In this document: one piece after another, positions 233 through 36,286 of the stretch
Numbering within the stretch: position 1 is the first letter of the stretch
Layout: each line of letters starts with the position of its first letter
DNA from: a virus
Direction: 5' to 3' (one strand)
IMG/VR virus record: IMGVR_UViG_3300035388_000088
Span: 1-36,286 of that record
DNA: 36,286 nt
Made by a program: the position numbers and the translations under genes
Notes under the pieces: generated by a model
What the model was told of the DNA's origin: nothing
Databases searched by the model: none
Seen by the model: only the letters and a program-made list of their open reading frames with translations

Positions 233-700
233 CTATTTGTTGATCCGTCCCATGTTCTCCATAGCCAACCCAAGAAACTTCTTGTACAAGCTACTGATAT
301 CATACTGCTTGGGAAATTCAAACTTCCGATCATCAGTGGTCACTGTGTTTCCTGTGTGATTCGGTGAATCAATGTATGAAATCGTGATTTCGCTGTCATC
401 GAGACCAAAGCCTGCAGTCTCACAAGTAACCCCTACGATCGTGTTCAGGAAGATCGTATTGGCTCTCATCTTCGATCCAGTAGCTCCTTGCCTGTTGAAA
501 TCGATGATCCGGAGATCTGTAACAACCATTGCATCCCGAACTAGCTTGTAGCCGACACTGACTTCTTCACCTTCAAGTAGGTACTGACCATACTCTTCGG
601 TCAGGTCTTCTGTTGATACTTCAGACAGATTACCTGCCAAGCCTTGCAAGATCCCTTTCGTATTAATGCCTTTCATCAATCCTTTTGGTTTTAATGCCAT
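233..700 (-). CDS. bacterial PH-domain (bPH) protein
   Basis: This encodes 155 residues. The central segment (about 45-125) has the pattern of the bacterial pleckstrin-homology-like family: a strand with VRDAMVVTDLRIIDF, then a QGATGSK turn, then strands with IVGVTCETAG and DSEITISYI. There is no signal peptide or membrane segment, so a cytoplasmic protein is expected. The start has GGAGG 8 nt upstream. The gene follows a sigma-A-like promoter and lies downstream of a terminator, so it is transcribed apart from the lysis operon, possibly in the lysogen. The N-terminal 40 residues are glycine- and lysine-rich. The family assignment is by pattern only, and the ligand is unknown. Confidence 0.72.
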   Translation of the reverse strand: MALKPKGLMKGINTKGILQGLAGNLSEVSTEDLTEEYGQYLLEGEEVSVGYKLVRDAMVVTDLRIIDFNRQGATGSKMRANTIFLNTIVGVTCETAGFGLDDSEITISYIDSPNHTGNTVTTDDRKFEFPKQYDISSLYKKFLGLAMENMGRINK

Positions 701-821: not shown

Positions 822-848
822 AAAAAGGGCTAGTTTTCACTAGCCCTT
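822..848 (-). terminator. intrinsic terminator after the HEPN-like gene
   Basis: A perfect 10-bp stem (825-834 with 839-848, loop TTTC) is followed on the minus strand by a run of five T. It ends the transcript of the HEPN-like gene and separates it from the PH-domain unit. Confidence 0.85.
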
Positions 849-889: not shown

Positions 890-1444
890 TCAATAATCGT
901 TTGTCATTTTTTGAAAATTATCGATTATTTCTAGACACTCTTCAGGAACACGACTATATCTTTGGCCAATTTTTTTCTTAAATGCCTCATCTTCCTCAAA
1001 ATCCATTTTCTCTAAGCATTCACCCATGCCAGCAAAAAATAGAGTTTTCAATTTGTCGCCTTCAATCACAATTCTATCCTCATACCCAAGAAAACCCATT
1101 ACATGTTCTAGTGCCTTATCAGCTTTTTTCCATTTATAAAGAATAATCTTCGCCTTTCCATTTCGCGATAATCTCGATTCGGATGTGTATGTATGTAAAG
1201 TTGAACATCTTGCTGCATACAAATCAATGGCTTTACATCCCAAATTCATTTCGGGTTTTACATATGTGTTAATCCATTGAATGTAATCATTCTTTGTCAC
1301 ATCCGACTCATCTTTTCTACACAACCAAGCTAAATTATCAATACCAGAGTATATCAATATAAGTGCTTGCATGTAGTAGTTTTTGGATAAGCAAAACTCT
1401 ATTGATTGAGTAAGATTATACAACTCTTTAATAAATACATCCAT
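890..1444 (-). CDS. HEPN-like all-alpha protein, possible RNase or exclusion factor
   Basis: This encodes 184 residues, probably all helical, with no membrane segment. An N-terminal helix carries a polar pair (SGIDNLAWL, D36-N37). A later helix contains R79-CSTL-H84, an Rx4H motif as in HEPN ribonucleases. In that family, the arginine and histidine of two subunits form a metal-independent RNA-cutting site. The start ATG has an AGAGGTG site upstream, a strong promoter precedes it and a terminator follows, so it is a single-gene transcript at the accessory end of the prophage. That position is typical for defence or superinfection-exclusion genes. The HEPN assignment is inferred from motif and helix pattern and is not certain; otherwise call it hypothetical. 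Confidence 0.5.
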   Translation of the reverse strand: MDVFIKELYNLTQSIEFCLSKNYYMQALILIYSGIDNLAWLCRKDESDVTKNDYIQWINTYVKPEMNLGCKAIDLYAARCSTLHTYTSESRLSRNGKAKIILYKWKKADKALEHVMGFLGYEDRIVIEGDKLKTLFFAGMGECLEKMDFEEDEAFKKKIGQRYSRVPEECLEIIDNFQKMTNDY

Positions 1445-1491
1445 TAGATTTCACCTCTCATTTTGTATGTAATAAATACTTTACTACCTTA

Positions 1492-1520
1492 AGTATAGGG
1501 TTTAAATTTCCATATTTCAA
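1492..1520 (-). promoter_or_regulatory. sigma-A-like promoter of the HEPN-like gene
   Basis: Minus strand: TTGAAA (1520-1515), a 17-nt spacer, then TATACT (1497-1492). Both hexamers match consensus at five of six bases. It sits 48 nt before the start codon and after the terminator of the lysis genes. Confidence 0.75.
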
Positions 1521-1561: not shown

Positions 1562-1584
1562 AAAAAAAACCGGCTCTCGCCGAT
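1562..1584 (-). terminator. intrinsic terminator of the late/lysis operon
   Basis: A short GC stem (CGGC/GCCG with a four-base loop, extended by one GU and one AU pair) is followed on the minus strand by eight T. It lies directly after the last lysis gene and probably ends the whole late transcript. Confidence 0.75.
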
Positions 1585-1598
1585 CCTCTTCCATTTCT

Positions 1599-4447: not shown

Positions 4448-4969
4448 TTAGCTAAAGGCTAATCCAGCCATCGCATAATAATTTGTGCCGTCATAGTATA
4501 TGGACACGATATCAACAGCATTGGCATCCGTGGACAATGTCGGCTCTGATCCACCTGGCCACTTCACAGCCGATGGCCAAGTCACCTCTCGGCTCCCTGT
4601 AGCATCCTGAATCAGTTTCAGCGTCAAACTGCAAGGGTTGCTTGGGGCTGTCAACGTTAATATGCAGTTGCCGGTCAAAATTAACTTATGCTTATTGCTC
4701 ATCTTCAGGTCGATAGTCTTCGCTGTACCGCTATTCCCATTGTCTTTTTCAGTGAAACCGATTGTATGCTCCCCGGCATCCATTTCTCCACCAAGTTCAG
4801 GTGTCGCATCCTCACCCAGTGTTGATATCTTACTTTCTGCTAAATCAGCATTCGCTTTCATCTGCGCATCGATCAATGCATTATCCGCCACAAAGTCAAC
4901 ACGCTTAGGATACTCATTCCCATCCCACTGGTTTAATCCGTAGTTTGTTGTTTTAGTTGCACTTGGCAT
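4448..4969 (-). CDS. tail fibre protein
   Basis: This encodes 173 residues. The N-terminus TTNYGLNQWDGNEYPKRVDF followed by a helical stretch is the common attachment region of Firmicute phage fibres. A TPELGGEMDAGEHTIGF segment, then a beta-rich C-terminal domain ending in VTWPSAVKWPGG and YYDGTNYYAMAGL, is found at the end of many short fibres. It is likely trimeric and attached to the baseplate through the upstream DUF2313 protein. Short length means it is probably the stem, with the downstream propeller protein as a possible distal partner. Confidence 0.8.
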   Translation of the reverse strand: MPSATKTTNYGLNQWDGNEYPKRVDFVADNALIDAQMKANADLAESKISTLGEDATPELGGEMDAGEHTIGFTEKDNGNSGTAKTIDLKMSNKHKLILTGNCILTLTAPSNPCSLTLKLIQDATGSREVTWPSAVKWPGGSEPTLSTDANAVDIVSIYYDGTNYYAMAGLAFS

Positions 4970-4984
4970 TTACTCACCACCTTA

Positions 4985-5542
4985 TCAATTGTACATTTCA
5001 AATTCATCCCATGTTAGATTCAGAATATCCCACTGATCCCATGGTTTGTTGTATACATCAAACTCATCCCATGTCATAAAGCTAAACTCGTATATCACTC
5101 CCAAGTGTGCGGGCTTAATGTCTTCGAGCCAGGACTTAAATTGATCATAGTTTGGCGGTATGCCGCGCAATGAAACAAACTTGATTTTAAAATAGCCTAG
5201 TGTTGCGTACTCAGTGATCTTGATCTCCCCGTTCTCATAGGAAAGAGCAGCATTCATTACCATCGACTTGGTGAACGTCCCTACTCCTCTAAGTTTCGAT
5301 ATGATAACTGAACGCCGGTAAGCATTGCTTTGACTCACATCCGTCTCTAGCTCAAGAAACTCTTCCCAGAATGCAAGGCCCCACGTTGCTGTCGGGACAT
5401 AAAGCTGAATCAGCACATCCTCAATGGCAACATGCAAATCTCCGGACTCAGCCCCACCTGCCTCATAGATGCTCTTGAACGGTTCAGCCTCTCTCAAGGA
5501 GAATGGAACATAGGATTTCACTGTTGCTGTTCTATCACTCAT
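4985..5542 (-). CDS. baseplate protein, XkdU/YmfQ-like (DUF2313)
   Basis: This encodes 185 residues and sits between baseplate J and the fibre, as in PBSX and Mu-type tails, where it links baseplate and fibres. The main domain (1-150) has the family pattern with YRRSVIISKLRGVGT and a LGYFKIKFVS strand. The last 35 residues carry three near-repeats, TWDEFDVYN, PWDQWDIL and TWDEFEMYN, rich in tryptophan and acid. These tails are seen in related proteins and may dock the fibre. Confidence 0.85.
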   Translation of the reverse strand: MSDRTATVKSYVPFSLREAEPFKSIYEAGGAESGDLHVAIEDVLIQLYVPTATWGLAFWEEFLELETDVSQSNAYRRSVIISKLRGVGTFTKSMVMNAALSYENGEIKITEYATLGYFKIKFVSLRGIPPNYDQFKSWLEDIKPAHLGVIYEFSFMTWDEFDVYNKPWDQWDILNLTWDEFEMYN

Positions 5543-5555
5543 TCCTTTCTCCCTC

Positions 5556-6605
5556 CTATGTCAGCTCCACAGGTCCAAGCACCGCTACCTCAGTTTCTGC
5601 AATGGCCACATTAGCCGTGCCGACATTCACGGTGAAAGCTGAGTAATCTAGTATGCCTGGCACCTCAAGGATCCGGCTCCCGATTTGGCCATATGAAACA
5701 TAATTTTGCTGAAACGCAATCTCCTTCAAATACGCTGTGATCATTTCTTCTATTGGTGCCTGGACACTTCCCACCGTATAACCGGTAGCCAAAGTCAACG
5801 TTGCAACTACATTGATGATAACACCGGTTGCCGCGACAACCGTTGCTTGTGCGCCGATCGGTCGCATCTCTTCGATATAATCCGTCACATCAGTTACCAA
5901 CGCAGCACTTGCTGGTTCCTTATCCGTATCCAGGAGAACAACCTTCACAGTACCGTTCCCATTCCATTCCGGAAGGACATGGGCATCGCCAATCCCATCT
6001 ACATCCTTCGCCCATTGCTTGTAGTGGTACTTGTTCCCACTGGTCGCCGGCTCCCGCACCTTCTCAAGAAGACGAACCAGTAATGCCGGATCTTTTTCCT
6101 CGTCAGCACCACCGATTGTTTCCGCAGCATTTGTCACTCCGGACACGCCTTCAATGGATACCGGGATCGAATTGATTGCAGCTATAGCAACATTCCCTAC
6201 AACACCAGCTTCAGCTGCAGTTACAAATGCATCGATGGAACCGCCAACGCCGACCGTGACTTCCGCATCGGTTTCAAATTGAATCCCGGCACCAGTGGCC
6301 ACAATGCTTCCTGCAGCTATTACGCTTCCGCTATCTCCTGAGAAAGTCACCGGTCCCGTCGACTTGACTGCAGAGTTCCTTTCAACGCCATGTTCCTGGG
6401 CTCTGTAATCTAAATAGGTTCCTTCTGTTGTTGGCGCAAATCCAAGAGCCAAGACTCGATCCAGATTTGCATATGCTATGGCCAACTCAATAGACTGAGG
6501 ACTTACCGAATCGAAATAGAACGATCCTTCAGCCTTATTCAATCCGGTGGCCGCGGCACCTAACATCCTAGCCAATACTACCGCTTCTGTTTGATTCTCA
6601 TACAT
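5556..6605 (-). CDS. baseplate J-like protein (XkdT)
   Basis: This encodes 349 residues from MYENQTEAV. This ATG overlaps the stop of the upstream gene and has GGAGG 9 nt before it; the longer upstream start lacks this. It shows the baseplate J/gp47 pattern: LDYRAQEHGVERNSA near the N-terminus, a glycine-rich beta domain with SIDAFVTAAEAGVVGNV, and a C-terminal helical/beta domain. It forms the wedge of the contractile-tail baseplate. It is preceded by XkdR- and XkdS-like genes, exactly the PBSX order. Confidence 0.92.
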   Translation of the reverse strand: MYENQTEAVVLARMLGAAATGLNKAEGSFYFDSVSPQSIELAIAYANLDRVLALGFAPTTEGTYLDYRAQEHGVERNSAVKSTGPVTFSGDSGSVIAAGSIVATGAGIQFETDAEVTVGVGGSIDAFVTAAEAGVVGNVAIAAINSIPVSIEGVSGVTNAAETIGGADEEKDPALLVRLLEKVREPATSGNKYHYKQWAKDVDGIGDAHVLPEWNGNGTVKVVLLDTDKEPASAALVTDVTDYIEEMRPIGAQATVVAATGVIINVVATLTLATGYTVGSVQAPIEEMITAYLKEIAFQQNYVSYGQIGSRILEVPGILDYSAFTVNVGTANVAIAETEVAVLGPVELT

Positions 6606-32383: not shown

Positions 32384-32722
32384 TTACGAGCCTCCTGCCA
32401 ATGCATCTAAAGCCAACTGGATTCGTAGATCAACTCCACTGGGGATCTCCTGAATATATGCCAGGTCAATCTCAGCTAGCGTCTGCCGAGCAAAGCTGAC
32501 ATCCTCCCAAAGACTATTGTATGAATCCAATATGGCCGCTCTGTCATCCTCAAGGATCTCAACTGCCTCTTCATATTGACCAATGATCCCATGCTGCTGA
32601 ATCGCAATAACTGTTAACATAAGGATGATCAGTACCAGGCATGGAATGATCAAGGGATCGATCTTCATGCGTTCATGGTTCCGATCTGGTTCCTCTGTCC
32701 AATCCTTCAGTTTGTCATTCAT
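32384..32722 (-). CDS. single-pass membrane protein with coiled coil
   Basis: This encodes 112 residues. One membrane helix (about 24-45, LIIPCLVLIILMLTVIAIQQHG) is followed by a helical tail (EEAVEILEDDRAAILDSYNSLWEDVSFARQTLAEI). The short charged N-terminus suggests the tail is outside or, with inverted topology, inside. Found in an early operon, so it may modify the cell membrane or block superinfection; no direct evidence. Confidence 0.6.
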   Translation of the reverse strand: MNDKLKDWTEEPDRNHERMKIDPLIIPCLVLIILMLTVIAIQQHGIIGQYEEAVEILEDDRAAILDSYNSLWEDVSFARQTLAEIDLAYIQEIPSGVDLRIQLALDALAGGS

Positions 32723-32957
32723 CCAACTCCTCCTCTTCTATTTGCTTATATTTTTCAAATAGTCCTGTCTCCCGCAACATCTGAACCTTATGTAAAATAG
32801 TCGCATGGGTCCGGCCAAGTGCGATGGCAAGATCTGCCTTGCGCATGGTATCGTACTGTGAGCAAAGGTATGTCAAATCCTCTTCCGACCACGGTTGATA
32901 ATGCTTGGTATGCAACTCAGGATCATAAGGCTTGCGATATTTGTACACCCACTTCAT
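32715..32957 (-). CDS. SANT/Myb-like HTH protein (copy B)
   Basis: This encodes 80 residues from MKWVYKYRK, chosen because homology with the neighbour starts there and GGGGTGG lies upstream. Pattern PWSEEDLTYLCSQYDTMRKADLAIALGRTHATILHKVQML is a small three-helix DNA-binding domain. About 39 of 67 residues are the same as in the next gene upstream. Confidence 0.68.
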   Translation of the reverse strand: MKWVYKYRKPYDPELHTKHYQPWSEEDLTYLCSQYDTMRKADLAIALGRTHATILHKVQMLRETGLFEKYKQIEEEELDE

Positions 32958-32991
32958 CCTTTCCACCCCGCTTGCTCCAGTTCTCAAAATC

Positions 32992-33213
32992 TCATCTCCT
33001 TCCCAATTGCTTGTAATACTCAAACTCGCCTTTCTTCCGAAGCACATACACTTGCGCCATAGTAGCAGCGTGAGTACGACCAAGGGCGAGTGCGAGATCC
33101 GACTTCTTCGTTGATCCGTACATAGAGCATAGATAGATCAGGTCTTCTCTACTCCAGGGACGCCCATGCTGCTCATGCAGATCTGGAGTGTATGGTGTCC
33201 GGTACTTATTCAT
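32992..33213 (-). CDS. SANT/Myb-like HTH protein (copy A)
   Basis: This encodes 73 residues. The core PWSREDLIYLCSMYGSTKKSDLALALGRTHAATMAQVYVLRK aligns along its whole length with copy B, so the two arose by tandem duplication. Probably a DNA-binding regulator of early genes. It overlaps the end of the excisionase-like gene. Confidence 0.7.
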   Translation of the reverse strand: MNKYRTPYTPDLHEQHGRPWSREDLIYLCSMYGSTKKSDLALALGRTHAATMAQVYVLRKKGEFEYYKQLGRR

Positions 33214-33887: not shown

Positions 33888-34502
33888 ATGAATATTGGAA
33901 ACCGCATCAAAGCTCGCCGTAAAGAACTTGGACTTTCTGCTGATGATGTTGCCACAAAACTTGGAAAAAATCGAGCAACTGTATACAGATATGAAAGTAA
34001 CGCAATAGAAAATTTGCCAACAAGCATTTTGGAGCCTTTAGCAAAAATTCTTGAAACTACACCAGCTGCCTTAATGGGTTGGGAAAAAATGAATCATAAA
34101 AAACGGTCCGTAAAAATCCCGGTACTTGGTCGAGTGGCGGCAGGAATTCCAATTGAGACTGTAGAAGATATTGAAGACTATGAAGAGATCCCAGAAACCA
34201 TGGCTGCAAGCGGTGAATTCTTTGCGCTTCGCATTCAGGGAAAAAGTATGGAACCGAGGATCCTTGATGGTGATGTAGTAATCGTTCGTAAACAAGAGGA
34301 TATTGAATCTGGTGAGATCGGAGTTGTAGTTGTGAATGGATCCGATGCTACTGTGAAAAAAGTCATGAAAGAGGAGAACGGGATCATGCTGGTAGCTACT
34401 AACCAAACTATCTATCCTCCGAAGTTTTATGATAAGAAAGCAATTGAAGATTTGCCAGTCTACATACTAGGTCGTGTTGTTGAGTTAAGAGCGAAGTTAT
34501 AA
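33888..34502 (+). CDS. LexA/CI-like repressor with S24 peptidase domain
   Basis: This encodes 204 residues. HTH at 5-45 (IGNRIKARRKELGLSADDVATKLGKNRATVYRYES). A hinge contains the cleavage site V-A-A85-G86. The S24 domain has the serine S120 (QGKSMEP) and lysine K157 (SDATVKKV), 37 apart as in LexA. It keeps the lytic promoter off and is expected to self-cleave with RecA after DNA damage. A TTG start at 33870 with GGAG upstream would add six residues; the ATG fits the family better, but either is possible. Confidence 0.92.
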   Translation: MNIGNRIKARRKELGLSADDVATKLGKNRATVYRYESNAIENLPTSILEPLAKILETTPAALMGWEKMNHKKRSVKIPVLGRVAAGIPIETVEDIEDYEEIPETMAASGEFFALRIQGKSMEPRILDGDVVIVRKQEDIESGEIGVVVVNGSDATVKKVMKEENGIMLVATNQTIYPPKFYDKKAIEDLPVYILGRVVELRAKL

Positions 34503-34558
34503 TTGATATGGGAATGCTATAGAACCGGGAAAAATCTTTTGAAGAAGGTGGTTTTATT

Positions 34559-34909
34559 ATGGGAGCGAAGAACAAAGTTATTGCAGGAGACTACAAAGGA
34601 AAAGGCATCTCCGGAGGAATTGGTGCACCATCAATTAGTAATCTACTTGGCAAGAACATTAGACTAACCAGTGCGGAAGTTGCCAAGTACGAGTTGGTCA
34701 CAGATGAGATCAGAAAGAGTATGGCAAGCGGCGCTGCAAGAGGTATTATCGGAACTATCGCACTTGGTCCTATCGTAGGGATTGCCGGAGTGCTATCCGC
34801 AAAAAGTAAAGGGGTTTACCAGGTGGCCATCGAATTTAACGATGGAAAAAAGAGTCTACTCGAAGTAGACAAGAAGATTTACCAAAAAATTGTGAAGCAC
34901 TGCTTCTAA
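34559..34909 (+). CDS. small glycine-rich protein of the lysogeny module
   Basis: This encodes 116 residues, with AAGAAGGTGG upstream. The middle (SGAARGIIGTIALGPIVGIAGVLSAKSKG) is a glycine-zipper-like hydrophobic part, and the end (YQVAIEFNDGKKSLLEVDKKIYQKIVK) is beta/helix. Similar proteins accompany repressors in Firmicute prophages. It is probably expressed in the lysogen, perhaps at the membrane; role unknown. Confidence 0.72.
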   Translation: MGAKNKVIAGDYKGKGISGGIGAPSISNLLGKNIRLTSAEVAKYELVTDEIRKSMASGAARGIIGTIALGPIVGIAGVLSAKSKGVYQVAIEFNDGKKSLLEVDKKIYQKIVKHCF

Positions 34910-34921
34910 ATAAAAAGAACC

Positions 34922-34941
34922 CTTGGTGCTAGAACACCAAG
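34922..34941. other. short hairpin after the glycine-rich gene
   Basis: A 7-bp stem CTTGGTG/CACCAAG. Downstream T run only exists on the minus strand, so it is not a clear plus-strand terminator. Confidence 0.35.
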
Positions 34942-34966
34942 AGCTCAGAGATGGCAATCAATCTAT

Positions 34967-35006
34967 AGAATGATATACCAACATCACATGGTAATTATAT
35001 CATTCT
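34967..35006. repeat. 11-bp inverted repeat upstream of the integrase
   Basis: AGAATGATATA (34967-34977) and its exact complement (34996-35006) frame an 18-base loop with an inner CCA/TGG. It could be an operator, an integrase/excisionase site or an mRNA leader hairpin controlling int. Confidence 0.5.
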
Positions 35007-35041
35007 GGACTATGATTTGGCAAAGAAAGGATGATAAATAA

Positions 35042-36286
35042 ATGGAAGGTCATATTCGAAAACGCGGGAACAAGTACTACTACTCCTTCGAGGCATCGAG
35101 TGTTGACGGGAAAAGAAAACGAATCGAGCGCATCGGTGGCCGCACTAAGAAAGAGGCGCAGACAGCTCTAAGGAAAGCACTGCTGGAATATGAGAATGGC
35201 GGTTTGCATTTTTCGCCATCTGATATCTCTGTTGCAGATCACCTAGATCACTGGTTCAAAAATTATGTTCTGGTGAACTGTAAATACAATAGCCAGCGCA
35301 GCTACACTGTCATAATTAAGAAACACATCAAGCCTGCTCTGGGGCACTATAAACTCAAAGCATTAACACCTGCAGTTCTTCAAGATTTCGTAAACGAGAA
35401 GTTCCGTTCCGGAATCAAGTATTATCATCTCAATTGCATTCTCAACGTATTGAATAGTGCAATCAAATATGGCGTCTATCCTTGCGGATTTATCAAAGAG
35501 AATCCCATGCAGTACATCAAGCGACCCAAGTATGATCATGATGTCAAACGGATGGGACATAAACTTATCAACTCAGAAGATTTCAATCGAATCCTCAAAC
35601 GCTTCCCCCAAGGGACTTATCCTTATATACCCATTATAATAGGATATTTCACTGGATGCAGGATCGGCGAAGTGATGGCCTTGACCTGGGATGATATCGA
35701 TCTAAAGAATCAAATAGTCGATATTAATAAAATCGTTTACAAGAAGAACAATGCCTGGTACTTCGGATCTACAAAAACGAAGTACTCTGTAAGAAGCATC
35801 AGAATCGGCTCTGCTCTTACAAGTATCCTAAAACAACATAAGAGGTGGCAGATGGAAAACAGAATGAAATACGGGCCATTCTACCTCGTTCAATCGGTAT
35901 CTACCATCCCCGATCCAGATACAGGCAACACTTTGAGACTAATTCACCAAAATAAGACATCGGAACCTTCCGGATCTTCAACTTCGATCAATATGGTCTG
36001 CACAAAAGAAAGCGGCGAGCTGGTCACTCCGATTTCATTTTACACAGCAGTTGCGATTATTCATAACCAGCTAAAGATCGACTTCAACTTCCACTCACTT
36101 CGACATACCCATGCAACAACCTTGATCGAGAATGGCGCAAACATCAAAGATGTACAAACGCGGCTCGGACATGCTAACATCAAAACAACCATGGATACCT
36201 ACACTCATGCCACTGAATCCATGGCGGAGAGATCAGTGGAGATTTTCGAACTTGCTTCCGAACAAATCATCGGCAAAAAGCAATGA
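35042..36286 (+). CDS. int: tyrosine integrase
   Basis: This encodes 414 residues, full length. An N-terminal arm-binding domain (HIRKRGNKYYYSFEASSVDGKRKRIERIGGRTKKEA) is followed by a SAM-like core-binding domain (about 60-160). The catalytic domain has R207 (TGCRIGEV), K245 or K247, H351-xx-R354 (FHSLRHTHATT), H377 (RLGHANI) and Y387 (MDTYTH). It inserts and removes the prophage at attP/attB. The gene reads out of the window, so the attachment site should be just beyond its stop. Confidence 0.95.
   Translation: MEGHIRKRGNKYYYSFEASSVDGKRKRIERIGGRTKKEAQTALRKALLEYENGGLHFSPSDISVADHLDHWFKNYVLVNCKYNSQRSYTVIIKKHIKPALGHYKLKALTPAVLQDFVNEKFRSGIKYYHLNCILNVLNSAIKYGVYPCGFIKENPMQYIKRPKYDHDVKRMGHKLINSEDFNRILKRFPQGTYPYIPIIIGYFTGCRIGEVMALTWDDIDLKNQIVDINKIVYKKNNAWYFGSTKTKYSVRSIRIGSALTSILKQHKRWQMENRMKYGPFYLVQSVSTIPDPDTGNTLRLIHQNKTSEPSGSSTSINMVCTKESGELVTPISFYTAVAIIHNQLKIDFNFHSLRHTHATTLIENGANIKDVQTRLGHANIKTTMDTYTHATESMAERSVEIFELASEQIIGKKQ

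Follow-up and report, generated by a model that had tools for sequence, protein, structure and literature searches.

A HEPN-family gene behind the lysis genes of a prophage-like virus record, a candidate stand-alone ribonuclease of superinfection exclusion

What does a single gene, placed behind the lysis genes of a prophage and accompanied by no evident partner, contribute to its carrier? The question is raised by the open reading frame at positions 890..1444, on the minus strand, of an IMG/VR virus record of 36,286 bases, the whole of which was analysed and is referred to here as the window. The reading frame starts with an ATG at 1442-1444 and encodes a protein of 184 aa, in which D36 falls in helix 2 and R79-C-S-T-L-H84 at the end of helix 3 of a predicted HEPN fold. 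HEPN ribonucleases turn up again and again as effectors in bacterial immunity. Those encoded by a single prophage gene have received some of the least attention, since neither a partner nor a named domain draws notice to them. A family that lacks a curated Pfam model, and in the case of the window protein an NCBIfam model too, would be annotated as hypothetical. We find that the gene is best read as a stand-alone HEPN endoribonuclease, carried as a prophage moron and acting in superinfection exclusion of the abortive-infection type, a reading to which we give a probability of roughly 0.6.

The record holds a tailed-phage late module and a repressor, with a tyrosine integrase at its right end. 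Its terminase is nearest to those of Lachnospiraceae phages, at about 49% identity, and the host therefore probably belongs to the Bacillota. We regard the record as prophage-like and cut at gene ends, with its exact prophage boundary unproven; no direct repeat (att) of at least 10 nt is shared between the record ends at 1-1600 and 34501-36286, and since the record is also trimmed at gene boundaries, the true ends of the prophage are probably to be sought beyond it. Related prophages found through the portal protein had at most 51% identity and were too distant for a comparison of the HEPN locus. In the early region, two adjoining paralogous small genes of PHROG 11013 (32715-33083 and 32992-33213, minus strand) form a tandem duplication.

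When examining the transcription signals, we observe that the gene is isolated from the lysis operon by a terminator just upstream of it, a hairpin CGGC-GAGA-GCCG followed by T8 at about 1562..1587 (minus strand), recognised by both fold and sequence. The holin-like ORF (1599-1982) and the amidase gene (1966-2724) precede it on the same strand, with this terminator in between, and the gene thus lies outside the lysis operon, as had been claimed in the original prediction. The ribosome-binding site GAGAGGTG (1452..1459, minus strand), 7 nt upstream of the ATG, is a good one. The gene also has the terminator of its own that had been predicted, a convincing one at 825..848 (minus strand), in which a perfect 10-bp stem formed by an inverted repeat is followed by a T-rich tail; the scan returned 1 such site versus 0.4 expected. 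The promoter had been called strong, and here the outcome is divided: the candidate sigma-70-type site TTGAAA-17-TATACT (1492..1520, minus strand; 10/12 matches in a consensus scan) fits the position and is a plausible promoter of the gene, but its strength is not borne out, because promoter-like sites in the region occur at chance level (5 found versus 4.2 expected). The intergenic stretches on both sides, at 701-889 and 1445-1598, are long and AT-rich. The composition of the gene is foreign to the record. Its GC content is 32.8%, whereas the record as a whole has 44.0% (mean 44.0 and SD 3.5 across windows of 555 bases), and the gene ranks 4th lowest among 715 such windows; its GC3 is 0.30, compared with 0.31 for the repressor and 0.40-0.55 for most phage genes. 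The low GC content, together with the transcription signals of its own, makes the gene read as imported cargo, a moron.

Next, we investigated the sequence family. Among the Pfam and NCBIfam models, the HEPN models of Pfam included, none recognises the protein, and the matches obtained were to two PHROGs to which no function is attached (PHROG 18591, E 3.7e-7; PHROG 12390, E 2e-5) and, weakly, to the PADLOC Csx1/Csm6 model (E 0.0013). When the protein or the family profile was used to search PDB sequences, nothing meaningful came back, the matches being of the kind of snake-venom lectins and plectin. A tblastn search at E 0.01 recovered no relative from any of the 50,697 phage records, and plasmids gave none either; the outcome was the same for phages and plasmids when two homologues served as extra queries, and an exact-peptide scan of IMG/VR likewise found none. 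A degenerate motif pattern returned chance similarity only (locus L082). An improved pattern yielded 2 genuine prophage relatives among 15 matches, and the alignment of the window protein with these two led to 21 loci in genomes. Conservation of R79 in those 21 loci is partly built in, because the pattern behind them contained LYAARC; H84 and D36 were outside the patterns used at that step. A motif-free profile search of about 1,000 genomes of Acidobacteriota, Chloroflexota and Pseudomonadota added 10 new relatives, in about 1% of the genomes, and R-x4-H is kept in all 10.

The resulting family set consists of 33 sequences from at least four phyla and two other prophages. In the joint alignment D36, R79 and H84 are invariant (33/33), and the same three residues are invariant in an independent alignment (n=29). 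The Rx4H motif is therefore present as originally described, R79-CSTL-H84, and its two catalytic-type positions are kept in every homologue, a result under which the HEPN call stands. The polar pair D36-N37 survives in part: both residues are there, but N37 occurs in only 2 of the 33 sequences and falls outside the site. The residue following R79 is Cys in 32 members and Asn in the remaining one (RNSLLH, the canonical RN form); a polar residue (N, D or H) after the arginine is typical of HEPN proteins, though not universal. By itself R-x4-H is a weak signal, occurring in 7% of shuffles of the protein, and it is therefore its conservation, rather than its presence, that carries weight. In the tree, the window protein has no supported sister and relatives from several phyla are intermixed, a pattern that would be expected of a mobile gene.

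The predicted fold points in the same direction. The AlphaFold2 model built with the family alignment (pLDDT 89.8, pTM 0.82) contains helices at 2-20, 24-41, 51-62, 72-84, 129-146, 153-162 and 168-182 and short strands at 101-104 and 125-128, so that the earlier description of the protein as all-helical is nearly right, the two strands being the exception. HEPN domains are defined by two alpha-hairpins, an insert between helices 2 and 3 and R-x4-6-H at the end of helix 3, and an acidic residue in helix 2 is conserved in many of the families (PMC3710099). In the model, helices 2-20, 24-41, 72-84 and 129-146 are assigned to H1, H2, H3 and H4 of the HEPN core, D36 is predicted within H2, R79-x4-H84 would end H3 and an insert is placed between H2 and H3, a modelled layout that matches the published definition; the HEPN helix arrangement is thus present in the predicted fold, and the claim passes this check as well. 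This layout recurs in the AlphaFold2 model of a diverged member (L132), whose H3 spans 72-85 and ends in the motif.

Structural searches against the PDB gave E-values above 2 for the window model, with Foldseek, although the three highest query TM-scores among the matches listed (0.31-0.35) all belong to HEPN proteins. For the diverged member, the best match is the HEPN protein 2hsb (E 0.49, probability 0.69), individually non-significant, and matches labelled HEPN make up 12 of the first 13 and 23 of 35 overall, with TM-scores of up to 0.43; these 23 come from four distinct proteins, AbiV, 2hsb, sacsin and 1wol, and are mostly AbiV chains. A search against viral predicted structures retrieved two phage proteins without a named function at a probability of 1.00. 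Profile comparisons by hhalign with DUF4145, PF05168 and HepT were non-significant, but those families, used as positive controls, do not match each other either, and the comparison therefore had no power. The HEPN identity originally proposed is upheld by the triad invariant in 33/33 sequences together with the canonical layout of the model; membership of the superfamily is very probable, and the fold and active site, as modelled and aligned, are well supported.

Upon examining the genomic surroundings of the relatives, we found no gene family that recurs beside the HEPN gene across the homologue loci, in agreement with the earlier statement that no partner antitoxin is adjacent. What recurs is the kind of place, namely mobile elements and defence islands; we selected the defence neighbours for scanning by eye, with no background rate to set against them, and claim no enrichment value. 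One relative (L089) lies at a prophage end, beyond lysis genes of the endolysin type on the opposite strand. In another prophage record (L119, 6538-8441; 2919367315), the HEPN gene is directly behind a PD-T7-5 homologue (E 1.9e-107). Elsewhere the gene overlaps the end of hsdS of a type I restriction-modification system (L100), stands beside a type III restriction-modification system (L101), or is found near Schlafen AlbA_2 (L106), PDC-M36A (L115) or AbiTii (L117). In an Ardenticatenales MAG (L097, 7947-9116), a C5 cytosine methylase adjoins the gene, and the HEPN domain is fused to a C-terminal part matching the candidate defence family PADLOC PDC-S05 (E 1.3e-6), possibly a new restriction-like fusion. 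The motif-free set contributes a relative between ssrA and a phage integrase (L130), one with an integrase and tRNA-Leu (L122), one with a tyrosine integrase (L131), and one whose neighbouring helicase has a sub-threshold match to the MTES_1575 nuclease (L121).

Several of these loci have further features of their own. The spot behind the PD-T7-5 homologue, with a terminase-like gene nearby, is a two-gene defence cargo spot. The integrase at L131:1-2022 carries a SAM-like domain at its N-terminus and is oriented away from the HEPN gene and a small ORF, a layout resembling an integron cassette array. In two acidobacterial genomes (L109:5727-8507 and L113:5874-8534), the HEPN gene begins 9 nt after an elongation factor G paralogue, and this spacing suggests a translation-linked operon. 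A distant family member that keeps R-x4-H is found in an acidobacterial genome (L200 in G136, 4454-6437), and a HEPN relative is also present in L124. Immediately downstream of this member come a gene for 345 aa, whose CARF match is sub-threshold, and an mCpol gene (PF18182, E=1.2e-31), making up a nucleotide-signalling operon of which the HEPN protein is the likely effector.

In the reading that we favour, the lysogen would express the HEPN protein from the gene's own promoter and keep it inactive. Upon infection by a second phage, a trigger made by the invader would activate it, and the HEPN dimer would then cut cellular and phage RNA, either mRNA or tRNA, in a metal-independent reaction carried out by R79 and H84 with the assistance of D36; the ensuing growth stop or cell death would block the invader. 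We infer the dimerisation, the ribonuclease activity and its target, the trigger, the silence in the lysogen and the anti-phage effect, and superinfection exclusion by this gene is plausible on the basis of its genomic context.

Among the alternatives, the one that survives best, while still being unlikely, is a toxin restrained by a small-RNA antitoxin, as in AbiF, or by a protein antitoxin encoded elsewhere, whose main role would be prophage maintenance, with defence being secondary. It has a precedent in the AbiF of a C. difficile prophage, a HEPN RNase near lysis genes that is held by an adjacent ncRNA (PMC12373285), and the long AT-rich stretches at 701-889 and 1445-1598 would offer room for such an RNA. 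However, no Rfam family scores above threshold in 600-1700, the folds of the flanks surpass those of shuffled sequences by a modest margin only (z -1.9 and -2.2), owing for the most part to the terminators, and no locus closely related to this one turned up for an analysis of covariation; as for a toxin-antitoxin unit in general, no neighbour recurs among the homologues.

A considerably smaller chance attaches to an ordinary host gene just past the true prophage end, or to a non-catalytic, RNA-binding HEPN protein at that position. The cut at gene ends and the missing att repeat would allow the former, and non-catalytic HEPN domains do exist (PMC3710099), but the gene is flanked by the lysis cassette on one side and, on the other, by a gene that has a phage homologue, its composition is unlike that of its neighbours, and the full active-site triad is invariant. 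Slightly less probable again is a HEPN RNase serving the lytic programme of the phage itself, for example in late degradation of host mRNA; the gene adjoins the late genes on the same strand and read-through of the lysis terminator would give late expression, yet it is closed by a terminator of its own and set off by another one upstream, it is absent from all the phage records searched by tblastn, and most homologues are in chromosomes, in islands linked to integrases or in defence islands, rather than in phage late operons.

The gene downstream, at the left end of the record (233..700, minus strand), encodes a bacterial PH domain (bPH_1, PF08000, E=1.6e-24). Its homologue in Lactococcus phage phismq86 is located between repressor and integrase, beside the integrase, which makes the bPH_1 gene likely lysogeny cargo, and we consider it probably a separate phage cargo rather than a demonstrated partner. 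A two-gene module in which the bPH_1 protein senses or restrains the HEPN protein at the membrane is the least probable of the alternatives: the two genes share strand and order, HEPN first and bPH_1 second, both here and in a single distant relative (L125), but the neighbour occurs in only 1 of about 36 HEPN-family loci, the phismq86 homologue has no recognised HEPN gene with it, and a terminator stands between them in the window.

Beyond the single locus, superinfection exclusion by a stand-alone HEPN endoribonuclease would extend to a more tentative proposal, for which we see somewhat less than an even chance: that these proteins form a widespread family, as yet without a name, of HEPN RNases of abortive infection that are encoded by single genes without partners and share the signature D...RCx3H. 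Prophages, integrase-linked islands and defence islands would have carried the family into at least four phyla, a single small protein would both sense infection and cut RNA, and distant members would be the effectors of mCpol nucleotide-signalling operons. If the protein works alone, it would offer a compact case for studying how a 20-kDa protein is kept silent in the lysogen and switched on by infection, and defence catalogues could flag its relatives, present in about 1% of the sampled genomes in three phyla.

Prophage HEPN proteins that stop phages are a known kind of system, whereas this family has no curated Pfam model. The window protein belongs to, or is close to, PHROG 18591 and PHROG 12390, neither of which has an assigned function. 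It differs from the HEPN-MNT toxin-antitoxin pairs in that no ORF for a minimal nucleotidyltransferase is adjacent in the window and no recurrent partner appears in the homologues. With Csm6/Csx1, effectors that combine CARF and HEPN domains, it shares the weak PADLOC match and a beta element after the motif, a beta-hairpin at that place being described for Csx1 (PMC3710099); in contrast to them, it is a single 184-aa HEPN domain without CARF and outside a CRISPR locus. The Lactococcus HEPN RNase AbiV (PDB 9bj5-9bj7) is the closest solved fold by number of matches and is similar in size; it is an anti-phage RNase in which we found no sequence similarity to the window protein, and its family usually lacks the motif His and uses another (PMC3710099). 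AbiF/Abi_2 (PF07751), a prophage HEPN RNase behind lysis modules with an ncRNA antitoxin (PMC12373285), resembles the present case in being a HEPN RNase near a prophage lysis module, whereas the window protein has no PF07751 match and its gene no adjacent ncRNA recognised by Rfam. Finally, Tha, the tail-activated HEPN anti-phage system of S. aureus prophages, is a HEPN RNase activated by the tail protein of the invader (PMC11087260). The two proteins have in common that they are prophage-borne HEPN proteins with R-x4-H and without a classical toxin-antitoxin partner next to them. Tha, however, has 301 aa, a separate N-terminal region and its motif, RNSIMH, near the C-terminal end, compared with 184 aa and a mid-protein RCSTLH here, and it is encoded in the lysogeny operon with the antisense inhibitor Ith, whereas the window gene stands behind the lysis genes; no Ith-like gene was recognised and no plus-strand ORF of at least 60 aa overlaps the HEPN gene. 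Exclusion of other phages is shown for Tha, and it is the role that we propose for the window protein.
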